DNA of 64,000 nucleotides from Actinomycetes bacterium (GTDB lineage: Bacteria > Actinomycetota > Acidimicrobiia > Acidimicrobiales > RAAP-2): assembly GCA_021828055.1 (NCBI GenBank), contig JAKATH010000002.1, positions 1 to 64,000 on the forward strand, written 5' to 3'. Every line of letters begins with the position of its first letter. Position 1 is the first letter of the stretch. Positions 44,494 to 49,629 of this stretch are shown here, piece after piece. The notes under the pieces are model-generated. The model was not told the DNA's origin. It saw only the letters and a list, made by a program, of their open reading frames with translations, and ran no database searches. The position numbers were made by a program, and so were the translations under genes.

Positions 44494-46113
44494 TCAGAGA
44501 ACCGACGCGTCAAGGACGATCCCCCGACCGTGGCAGACCTGGCACTCGGAGGAGACTGACTCGATGAGGCCTTCGGAGATCCGCTTTCTGGTCATCTCGA
44601 CGAGTCCCAGCTCGGATATGTCGAAGATCTGGGTCCTCGTCTTGTCCCGGGCCAGCGCGGCCCGGAGCGCCGCAGCGACCTTCTCGCGGTTCTCCTTGAG
44701 CTCCATGTCGATGAAATCGATGACGATGATGCCGCCGATGTCCCGGAGCCGGAGCTGGCGAGCGACTTCATCGGCGGCTTCCAGGTTGTTGCGGAAGACG
44801 GTCTCTTCGAGGCTGCTCTTGCCAACGTTCTTCCCGGTGTTGACATCGATCACGGTCAGCGCCTCGGTGCGCTCGATGATCAGGGATCCTCCCGAGGGCA
44901 GCCACACCTTGCGGTCGAGCGCCTTGTGCAGCTGCTCGTGCACGTGGTAATGGTCGAAGAGCGACTGACCTTCGGCCCGTGCGTCGTAGAGCTCGACTCG
45001 GTCCGCGAGGTCGGGGCTGACCATCTCGACGTAGCCGCGTACCTGGTCGAACAGGGTCGGGTCGTCGATGATCACCCCGCGGTACTCGCTGTTCAGCTCC
45101 TCGCGCAGGATCCGGACCGCCAGCTCGGGCTCGCTGTACAAGAGGCCTGGCCCGGTCATGCGCGCAGCAGCTCGCTCGATCGACGTCCACTGCTGGAGCA
45201 GCCCTTCCACGTCGCGGCGAAGCTCCTCTTCTGTGGCGCCCTCTGCCGCCGTCCGGACGATCAAGCCGTGGCCAGAGGGACGGACGGCATCCACGATCTT
45301 GCGCAACCGACGCCTCTCGTTGTCCCCGAGCCTCTTGGAGATCCCGACGGCGTCGCTGTTCGGGACGAACACGGCGAACCGCCCCGGGAGGGACACTTCT
45401 TGGGTCAGCCGAGCCCCTTTCGTCCCGATCGGGTTCTTCGTCACCTGGCACAGGATCAGCTGGCCCGGCCGTAGGACCTCCTCGATCCTGGGCCCGGGCC
45501 CGCGGCCGCCGGAATCGACGTCGTCGGTGTCATAGCGGACGTCGCCGCGGTAGAGCACGGCGTTCTTCGGAATCCCGATGTCGACGAATGCCGCCTCCAT
45601 GCCAGGGAGCACGTTCTGGACCCGACCTGCATAGATGTTCCCGTCGATCTGCGTCGTCTCGTCCTGGGCGTGCGACACGAAGTGCTGGACCAGCGACCGG
45701 CCTTCGAGGACCGCGATCTGGGAGACTCCGGGCTGGACGTGGACGCAGATCAGATAACGGCCGGTCGAACGGCCCTTGCGCTCCCTCCCGCCTCGGCGGC
45801 GGCGTCGCTTCGACGGTGCCACGGCGAGGTCGTCCGCGTCTGCACCTGCCCCGTCGACCTCCTCCCCCAGTGGCCCAGGAGAGGAGGGGAGCGGTGCGAC
45901 AAGTGGTCGTACCACGGGTGCGGGCCTCGTGTCGCCGATCCGTGGCCGCGCAGGGGCGGGTGCCGACGCCTCCCTCAGCGTTTCTGCTTCGGTACGGTCT
46001 GGACCGTCACCCGGCCCGCGAACCGCCGACCGAACCGGCTCGTCCGTCGCCGGTGCCGCGTCGCCAACCACCGGGGGGGCCGTCGCAGCGCGCCCGTTCT
46101 CCAGCTCTTCCAT
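44494..46113 (-). CDS. rng: Ribonuclease E/G family
   Basis: GNIYAGRVQNVLPGMEAAFVDIGIPKNAVL, KVWLPSGGSLIIERTEALTVIDVNTGK, IIVIDFIDMELKENREKVAAALRAALARDKTRTQ, CQVCHGRG. Confidence 0.95.
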   Translation of the reverse strand: MEELENGRAATAPPVVGDAAPATDEPVRSAVRGPGDGPDRTEAETLREASAPAPARPRIGDTRPAPVVRPLVAPLPSSPGPLGEEVDGAGADADDLAVAPSKRRRRRGGRERKGRSTGRYLICVHVQPGVSQIAVLEGRSLVQHFVSHAQDETTQIDGNIYAGRVQNVLPGMEAAFVDIGIPKNAVLYRGDVRYDTDDVDSGGRGPGPRIEEVLRPGQLILCQVTKNPIGTKGARLTQEVSLPGRFAVFVPNSDAVGISKRLGDNERRRLRKIVDAVRPSGHGLIVRTAAEGATEEELRRDVEGLLQQWTSIERAAARMTGPGLLYSEPELAVRILREELNSEYRGVIIDDPTLFDQVRGYVEMVSPDLADRVELYDARAEGQSLFDHYHVHEQLHKALDRKVWLPSGGSLIIERTEALTVIDVNTGKNVGKSSLEETVFRNNLEAADEVARQLRLRDIGGIIVIDFIDMELKENREKVAAALRAALARDKTRTQIFDISELGLVEMTRKRISEGLIESVSSECQVCHGRGIVLDASVL

Positions 46114-46137: not shown

Positions 46138-46648
46138 TCATGTCGCCCGCCCTTCGGCGTGCGGGGCGACGACACCAGGCTCGCGGCCGCAAGCGGCCAG
46201 CGGCTCCACCCGGGCGCCGTCGCGCTCGATCCATTGATGCAGCCGGCAGGGCCGTAAGCGCCGCACGCCGGGGCCAAGTGCCTCCAGGAGCTCCCTCGGT
46301 CGCACGCCACTCGGCCTGGTGGCGAGCTCCGCCTCGAGCCAGGCGCGCTCACCGTGCGTCAGCTCGTCGGGCACGCCGTCGGCGTGAGGGAAGGCCACCA
46401 GGGCCAGCGATGGGGGACGCAGGTCGTCAGGTGCAGATCGCCCTTTGCGCTCCCATTCGACCAGTGCAGTCGGTGCAGCAAGCAGCCGCTCGACCCGCGA
46501 CGCCAGCTTCTCTGCTGCCAAACCGAGCACCTCCAGCTCCCAGCTGCTCGATGATACCTCGTACTGGGGCGACCGAGACCCCCATCCGCACGGCGTCGCG
46601 ATGGCTCGTGAACCGGATCTTGCCGACCTTCGAACAGCGGATGTGCAC
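46138..46648 (-). pseudogene. Remnant of TIGR03936/DUF2344 radical-SAM-linked protein: N-term and C-term in different frames, middle missing
   Basis: N-terminal VHIRCSKVGKIRFTSHRDAVR (frame of ORF 46427..46648); C-terminal VEWERKGRSAPDDLRPPSLALV...ELATRPSGVRPRELLEALG...HQWIERDGARVEPLA (frame of ORF 46138..47007). Confidence 0.8.
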
Positions 46649-46689
46649 ACGCGCCGGGGGGGTCCCGTCGCACCGCCCGCACCCCCGTC

Positions 46690-47057
46690 AGCGCCGGGCT
46701 CCCAGGAGCTGGAGGGGATGCGCCCGCCGTGCTCGAGATCCTGTCCCGTCCCCTGGCTCCCCCCGGCAGGAGGGTGGGGGAACGCCACGACGTCCTCGGT
46801 GCCGAAGCCGGTGCACGCGCCGGCGGGTGGCTCCCCACGGAGAAGAGCGGTACGCCGCCGTCCGCATTGCCGACTCCATGTCGACCCAGGGGGCGTACGA
46901 GCGTTCGGCGAACGCTCTTCGAGCACGTCCCGGCGATCGTTCGGCAGCTCGTAGAGGCCCTCGGCTCCCCCGGGACGACGCCGGGGGATCAGCGCCGGCT
47001 CCTGCACGCCGAAACGGAGCGCCTCGACCCGCGGCCGGAGTGGCTCCAGCGAGACTA
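46690..47057 (-). pseudogene. Multi-frameshift N-terminal remnant of TIGR03960 B12-binding-domain radical SAM protein
   Basis: Reverse-strand fragments in three frames, in the expected order: VSLEPLRPRVEAL, GLYELPNDRRDVLEER, YAPWVDMESAMR, GVPLFSVGSHPPAR, GFGTEDVVAF. Confidence 0.68.
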
Positions 47058-47070
47058 CGGCCGGACCACC

Positions 47071-49629
47071 CTACGGCGGCCCCCGCTCGCTCTTCGAAGA
47101 GCGCCGGCGCTCGCGCACGGTCGGCACACGTCGTGGCACGACGGTGGAGCCCGTGGCGCCGGCTGGACGAGATGTCGGCGCGGCCGTGGTGGTGGTGGTC
47201 GGCGCAGCCGTCGTGGTGGTGGTCGGCGCGGCCGTGGTGGTGGTGGTCGGCGCGGCCGTCGTGGTGGTGGTCGGCGCGGCCGTGGTGGTGGTGGTCGGCG
47301 CGGCCGTCGTGGTGGTGGTCGGCGCGGCTGTGGTGGTGGTCGGCGCGGCCGTCGTGGTGGTGGTCGGCGCGGCTGTGGTGGTGGTCGGCGCGGCTGTCGT
47401 GGTGGTGGTGGTCGATGTGGAGCTGGGCGCAGCCGTGGTGGTGGTCGACGCTGCGGTGCCCGACTTGGGAGGCGACGTGCCGGGAGAAAGCTTCGGCTGG
47501 TGCGCAGCGGTCGGCAGCTCGAGCGACGCGGACGGCGGGTGAGCGTACAGGTAGTTGAAGATCTTGGCGACTGCAGGTGCTGCGCCCGCCTCCCCGTAGC
47601 CTCCCTGGGCGACGGCGACGGCGACCACGTACTGGGTTGTCCCGTTCACAGGGCCGAACCCGACGAACCAGGCGTTCGGCGCACGTCCTGACCGTGTTGT
47701 CGCGGTTGTGGCGGTGCCGGTCTTTCCCGCGATCACGTACGAGCTCGGCACTTTCGAGTACTGCTGGAACGTCCCGTAGGCGGTCCCTTTCGGTGTGTGG
47801 GTGGCACCGACGAACCCCTGGAGCATCGCCTGGTAGTCCGTGGGTGTGAGCGAGACGTGTCCGGTCACCTTGGGCTCGACCCGCTTGACGAGTTTGCCTT
47901 CCGGGGAGACGACGGCGCCGACGACCTCGGGTTGGTGACGGACCCCGTGATCGGCGAAGGTCGCGTACGCCACCGCCTCCTCGATGGGCGTGATCACGGT
48001 CTCGCCCTGGCCGAACGCCATCTCGATGTTTGTCCCCGGGTACCAGGAGGTGTTCGGGTAGTTCTTCGGTGTGAGCTGGTGGAGCTTCTCGCGCATCCGC
48101 TGGCTGTCCACGCGGCCTTGCACCTCTCCGGGCAGGTCGATGCCCGTCAAGTCACCGTAGCCGTACTCGTGGGCCACCCTCTGGATCCCTGTGTTGCCGT
48201 AGCGTGAGCGTGAAAGCCAGAACTGAAGGCCGAGTGTGTAGAAGAAGAAGTCGTCCGACTCCGCAAGGGCCAGCCGAATTGTGATGATCCCGGCGTCGAA
48301 CGCTGTCGCGTCGTGAAACGTGCACCCCGACGTGCATGTCGGATCTCCATGTGCCCTGACTGTGAAGACTCCGGTGTCGTCCTTGGTCGACGTCGGCGTG
48401 ATGAGTCCAGTCTGCAATGCAGCGGTGGCGGTGGCGAGCTTGAACGTGGACCCGGGGGTGTACAGACCCTGGATCGCGTAGTCGTTCAGGGGGCATCCGC
48501 CTGTCGCGACGGTGCATCCCGCGCGCAACGCATCGTAATGGGCCGTCGAGATCCCGCCGACCCACTCTGTGAGGTTGTAGGAGGGGTAGGAAGCGAGCGC
48601 AAGGACGGCACCGGTCTGAGCGTCGAGCACGACGGCAGCACCGTTCGTCGCGCCGGGATGCGTCCCAGCTGTGAGCCTGGAACGGTCCGAGAAGATGACT
48701 GTGGCCAGGTTCTGCTGGACGTTCTTCTGGAGCTCACTTGTGATGTTCAGCTCCACAGTGTCGCCCTGGACTGGCCTGGTCCTGCGAAGCACTCCGACCT
48801 CTGTGCCCGTGGGCGTGACTTCGAGTGTCTCGTGTCCGGCTTTGCCGCGCAGGTAGCGCTCTTCTGCGAGCTCGACGCCCGCCTTCCCGATCACGGACGT
48901 CTGCGAATACCCACCGTTGGGATGAGCCTTGAGAAATGTCGCTGTGATGGGCCCTGTGTAACCAAGCACGTGAGTGCCAGTTGTCCCGCCCTGAGGATAA
49001 TCGCGGACCGTCACCTGAACGACTGTCACGCCAGGGAATTGGGACTGATGCGCGTCCAGGTACTGGACGACAGCGGGGGAAGCGCTCTGCAGCACTGGAA
49101 CCGGCTCGTAAGGACTGTACTGGAGGTCTGTGAGCGCGGCTCGAACCGCTGCCGGCGTGATGCCGCACAGCGCGGCCACCTTCCCGACGATCGAGGGGTT
49201 CGACGCGGCTTCAACCCGTGAGAGCACGACTTCGTTCTCCACCTTGTTGCCGGCGAGCACCGTGTCCTGACGGTCGACGATGAGCCCCCGAGGAGCCGGG
49301 ATTGTGACCGTCCGAAGCGAGTCCTGGTTGACGGCCGCCGCGTACTGGTGGCGGTCGATGACCTGGAGATCCCACAGCCGGAGCACCATCACACCGAACA
49401 GGATGAAGACGATCGCAGCCACCACGCGCATGCGCACCCGCGGACGGGCCGGCACCTCTTCGGGCGAAGCAACGAGGGCCGCGACGTTGACGCTGCGGCG
49501 CGGACGCATCCGTGGCTGGTGGGACCGGCGCCTCGCGTGAGCCCCGCCCGAGCGGGACTTCCCACGTGCGATCGCCCTCGGGAACAGCCGGCTGCTCCGG
49601 AAGGGATGGAGGAGGGAGCGACGCTTCAC
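47071..49629 (-). CDS. mrdA: Penicillin-binding protein 2 (class B transpeptidase) with Thr/Ala/Pro repeat tail
   Basis: YTPGSTFKLATATAAL (SxxK), SDDFFFYTLG (SxN-like), IAGKTGTATTATTRSGRAPNAWFVGFGP (KTG); next to mreD/mreC/mreB. Confidence 0.94.
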   Translation of the reverse strand: MKRRSLLHPFRSSRLFPRAIARGKSRSGGAHARRRSHQPRMRPRRSVNVAALVASPEEVPARPRVRMRVVAAIVFILFGVMVLRLWDLQVIDRHQYAAAVNQDSLRTVTIPAPRGLIVDRQDTVLAGNKVENEVVLSRVEAASNPSIVGKVAALCGITPAAVRAALTDLQYSPYEPVPVLQSASPAVVQYLDAHQSQFPGVTVVQVTVRDYPQGGTTGTHVLGYTGPITATFLKAHPNGGYSQTSVIGKAGVELAEERYLRGKAGHETLEVTPTGTEVGVLRRTRPVQGDTVELNITSELQKNVQQNLATVIFSDRSRLTAGTHPGATNGAAVVLDAQTGAVLALASYPSYNLTEWVGGISTAHYDALRAGCTVATGGCPLNDYAIQGLYTPGSTFKLATATAALQTGLITPTSTKDDTGVFTVRAHGDPTCTSGCTFHDATAFDAGIITIRLALAESDDFFFYTLGLQFWLSRSRYGNTGIQRVAHEYGYGDLTGIDLPGEVQGRVDSQRMREKLHQLTPKNYPNTSWYPGTNIEMAFGQGETVITPIEEAVAYATFADHGVRHQPEVVGAVVSPEGKLVKRVEPKVTGHVSLTPTDYQAMLQGFVGATHTPKGTAYGTFQQYSKVPSSYVIAGKTGTATTATTRSGRAPNAWFVGFGPVNGTTQYVVAVAVAQGGYGEAGAAPAVAKIFNYLYAHPPSASLELPTAAHQPKLSPGTSPPKSGTAASTTTTAAPSSTSTTTTTTAAPTTTTAAPTTTTTAAPTTTTAAPTTTTTAAPTTTTTAAPTTTTTAAPTTTTTAAPTTTTTAAPTTTTTAAPTSRPAGATGSTVVPRRVPTVRERRRSSKSERGPP
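47177..47430. repeat. 21/24-nt tandem repeat coding (T)4-5AAP tail of PBP2
   Basis: gtggtggtggtcggcgcggcc repeated about 11 times with length variants. Confidence 0.93.

Follow-up and report, generated by a model that had tools for sequence, protein, structure and literature searches.

TIGR03960 (NCBIfam rSAM_fuse_unch) comprises B12-binding radical SAM proteins, and TIGR03936 (NCBIfam sam_1_link_chp) is a family of radical SAM-associated proteins. TIGR03960 is present in nine of the 12 genus-mates of the genome studied here, and intact genes of both families stand at the same locus in those genus-mates whose contigs span it. A search of a limited library for TIGR03960, TIGR03936 and DUF2344 gave nothing useful on what the intact pair does. 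The radical-SAM pair is conserved yet, as far as the literature searched tells, uncharacterised, and it is dispensable.

In the window (the whole stretch of 64,000 nucleotides that was analysed), the same place holds the remains of both genes. The N- and C-terminal stretches of the TIGR03960 relic match, in the same order, the intact gene that the genus-mates carry at this locus. In contrast to a TIGR03960 protein, however, the relic has its core deleted, its frames broken and its start codon lost, and it is not a functional member of the family. The TIGR03936 relic is likewise recognisable by its N- and C-terminal parts and adjoins rne as in the intact relatives, but its middle is deleted, it is cut off from any start and it evolves neutrally. 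This is almost certainly a two-gene pseudogene, TIGR03960 together with TIGR03936, which was lost in a clade, has been eroded by frameshifts and deletions and codes for no functional protein.

The relic between mrdA and rne

The interval between mrdA and rne on the minus strand measures 957 bases, in which neither the list of open reading frames nor the sequence offers a credible gene. The window genome (G000) is a draft assembly of 154 contigs, 84% complete. Both neighbouring genes are intact. Upstream lies mrdA (47071..49629, minus strand), an 852-aa ORF named from its sequence as a PBP2-type transpeptidase, the DNA of which is 92% identical to that of G008 across most of the gene length. 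Downstream, the rne/rng-type ribonuclease gene (44494..46113, minus strand; 539-aa ORF) begins with an ATG at 46113, with AAGGAGGGA upstream of the ATG, and its omega between genomes of the genus is 0.04-0.08. The C-terminal tail of MrdA (window 47170-47460) consists of a T/A/P-rich repeat array of TTTTTAAP units that varies among the genomes of the genus; part of this array reads as N in G008 (L041). In an order-level relative (G039, L138 3203-4417), a candidate RodA/FtsW-like frame, named from sequence, follows mrdA and precedes rne, and it has no counterpart at the same place in the window.

The segment 47075-46114 (minus strand) was compared with the intact proteins of G005, a genome of the same genus (locus L044), by a purpose-written frameshift-aware local alignment. 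The score for TIGR03960 was 306, with none of 10 shuffled sequences exceeding 72. The first part of its relic (46813..47046, minus strand), also seen in DNA matches to G005, G006 and G012, spans residues 23 to ~122, spread over several frames; codons 1-22, among them the start codon, are gone, as are ~32 internal residues. The last ~44 residues (623-666) are found at 46691..46821 (minus strand), with one more frameshift. The two parts meet at a deletion junction (46813..46822, minus strand), where overlapping matches to G005 and G006 share 7-10 bases that can be assigned to either side. The deletion measures 1,501 bp from either of these genomes and took out the radical-SAM core, ~500 residues being absent between ~122 and 623. 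This core is required in a functional TIGR03960 member, and the alignment finds none at the locus. When five short peptides of the relic are joined by hand, they match TIGR03960 with an E-value of 2.1e-4 at 20 bits, which does not reach the curated cut-off of 462.3 bits for full-length membership.

These five peptides had been picked out in a sequence-only reading, which placed them on the minus strand in changing frames and in a given order; the sequence and the frameshift-aware alignment confirm all of this. It had taken them to come from the TIGR03960 N-terminus. Their order is indeed that of TIGR03960, but the last one, GFGTEDVVAF, lies at ~residue 627 of an intact protein of 666 aa and is therefore C-terminal. 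The reading was also right that the radical-SAM core is missing, although it put the loss before the next remnant after GFGTEDVVAF, whereas the deletion relative to G005 and G006 falls between GVPLFSVGSHPP and GACTGFGTEDVVAF. Finally, the span that it gave, 46690-47057, stops short: beyond 46690 the fossil continues through TIGR03936, a second gene of the same fossil that had been missed, to the stop codon of that gene at 46138.

Against the intact G005 protein, TIGR03936 reached a frameshift-aware score of 610, compared with a maximum of 91 in shuffles. Its N-terminal relic (RVHIRCSKVGKIRFTSHRDAVRM; RVHIRCSKVGKIRFTSHRD) was located by this alignment at 46583..46660 (minus strand), and the peptide RVHIRCSKVGKIRFTSHRDAVRM alone matches the start of the family weakly (E 0.034). 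Overlapping matches to G005 and G006 place the junction of a ~0.3-kb deletion inside the gene at 46579..46605 (minus strand). The C-terminal third (46138..46580, minus strand) then runs in a single frame to the stop and is neutral in four fossil genomes.

Decay in the clade and loss across the family

The sequence-only reading had explained the scraps by frameshifts and deletion and had proposed a frameshift-aware search for TIGR03960, a comparison with close relatives and a genome-wide search for an intact copy. Each of these bears the explanation out: the alignment is significant (306 against at most 72), the intact gene stands at exactly the same place in genus-mates, and TIGR03960 has no match anywhere in the 84%-complete assembly at E <= 0.001. 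TIGR03936 has no match elsewhere in this assembly either, the incompleteness of which leaves some probability to a distant second copy.

Three further genomes of the genus (G008, G009 and G010) lack any match to TIGR03960 genome-wide, and none of them reaches the cut-off for TIGR03936. The locus is wrecked differently in each: in G008, residues 3-88 of TIGR03960 survive, interrupted by frameshifts and a stop; G009 retains only scraps; and G010 retains only pieces of TIGR03936. In a FastTree tree of concatenated neighbour genes, these three and the window genome form one clade (support 0.978), within which the window genome, G008 and G009 are grouped at 1.000; G006, with the intact pair, is the sister of the four-genome clade. 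A tree of rne only also supports the three closest genomes and does not place G010 (support 25-37). No inactivating lesion common to all four fossil genomes was identified, and repeated loss within the clade is therefore possible.

Selection was assessed on 138 codons of the C-terminal TIGR03936 relic by comparing omega = 1 with free omega under two codon models. Among the four fossil genomes, omega = 1 was not rejected (2dlnL 0.03 and 0.07). It was rejected for eight intact orthologues (2dlnL 136 and 107) and also for four close ones (25 and 16). Pairwise omega is 0.69-1.45 among fossils, versus 0.26-0.62 among intact genes. A neutral relic beside constrained intact orthologues marks the gene as dead. 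The locus thus combines the features by which a pseudogene is tested, namely homology to an intact gene at the same place, disabling lesions and the loss of purifying selection.

In the genus ancestor, the B12-binding radical-SAM gene and its linked partner would have formed a two-gene unit between mrdA and rne. Its function was probably lost once, as the simplest course, in the ancestor of the four genomes, after which frameshifts and deletions would have eroded each lineage separately. What the window genome retains, after deletions of 1.5 kb and ~0.3 kb, which may have arisen at short homologies, and several frameshifts, is a pseudogene of ~0.9 kb.

The pattern extends beyond the genus. A draw of 150 genomes of the family contains 61 with TIGR03960 and 59 in which TIGR03936 exceeds its cut-off, with nearly complete overlap between the two sets. 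In more than half of the draw the pair goes undetected, a proportion inflated somewhat by incomplete genomes. The two genes have thus been lost together, and repeatedly, across the family.

Elsewhere, a separate TIGR03936 relic lies between mrdA and rne in G015, a genome of another genus (L137 3660-4181; score 131 versus a shuffle maximum of 94), and is accompanied by no TIGR03960 remnant. In a third genus, a weak match to the C-terminal part of TIGR03936 only (G125:C16:5657-5884, profile 123-204) is possibly another relic. The locus is also present in G021 and G039, with no detectable relic.

The retained 3' end and the open reading frame

Besides being a fossil, the relic may owe its surviving 3' end to the rne promoter, which is proposed to lie inside. 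Selection would then keep this end for a promoter or leader with TATCAT (46551..46556, minus strand) as a candidate -10 element, and rne would be transcribed from a dead gene; we give this slightly less than an even chance. The hexamer is retained in all four fossils, as TATCAT in the window genome and TAACAT in the other three, and all 23 intact genes compared from eight genera, a set defined after inspection, have TANCAT. In the intact genes, it is formed by the codon GTA followed by TCA, ACA or GCA, and is thus conserved despite three different second residues (Ser, Thr or Ala). Third positions in these genes are mostly 11-28% A/T, and relatives outside the family mostly have G/C-ending codons at the site. 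A block at 46478..46549 (minus strand) contains, just downstream of the hexamer, a run of 65 bases that does not vary among the window genome, G008 and G009 (permutation p 5.5e-4). The interval 46562-46477 is less variable than the remainder (Fisher p 0.004 for three genomes, 0.0017 with G010), and the deletions end upstream of the hexamer in all four fossils.

Against an embedded promoter, none of the 14 genomes from a further four genera of the family has the hexamer, and a sigma-70 scan found no consensus match and no -35 element at 16-18 bases. The retained block has no Rfam match, and the 32 base pairs predicted for its RNA receive no support from covariation (term +0.75 kcal/mol). TANCAT is most simply read as the -10 box of a candidate rne promoter within TIGR03936. 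That promoter function fixed the rare GTA-NCA codons in eight genera, and now bounds the deletions in a clade that has no gene, is a proposal built on sequence comparison that we consider nearly as likely to be right as wrong.

An ORF caller would report a 289-aa protein at 46138..47007, conceivably a truncated TIGR03936 partner that has gained a new N-terminus. No stop interrupts the frame, about half of which (46580-46138) is in-frame TIGR03936. The first half, however, follows the reading frame of neither parent gene, and the product scores 14.4 bits for TIGR03936, below the curated cut-off of 71.9. Moreover, omega does not fall below 1 across the four fossil genomes, a one-base insertion precedes the stop in G008 and G009, and the relic of G010 is interrupted by a stop. 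A real protein is thus very improbable, being ruled out by the mixed frames, the neutral omega and the low family score, as the sequence-only reading had anticipated. The ORF is spurious, an accidental fusion of an out-of-frame relic with an in-frame TIGR03936 relic, and as called it should stay out of databases as a protein.

That an assembly or sequencing error in the 154-contig draft broke an intact gene pair is hardly credible, even though frameshifts are a common error in GC-rich sequence, since three other genomes of the clade carry different wrecks at the same locus, the flanking genes are intact, and the relic shows neutral substitution, which errors cannot produce.

Comparison with unitary pseudogenes

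The two-gene pseudogene is of interest in that four related genomes catch decay at different stages. Joint loss across the family supports TIGR03960 and TIGR03936 acting as one unit, and the contrast between family genomes with and without the pair offers a natural route to its function. The fossil itself is an ordinary pseudogene, well resolved. Like unitary bacterial pseudogenes, it combines frameshifts with deletions that have a few shared bases at the junction, and it shows relaxed selection and clade-wide loss. Nothing essential sets it apart from them, except that its 3' end may persist through an embedded promoter.
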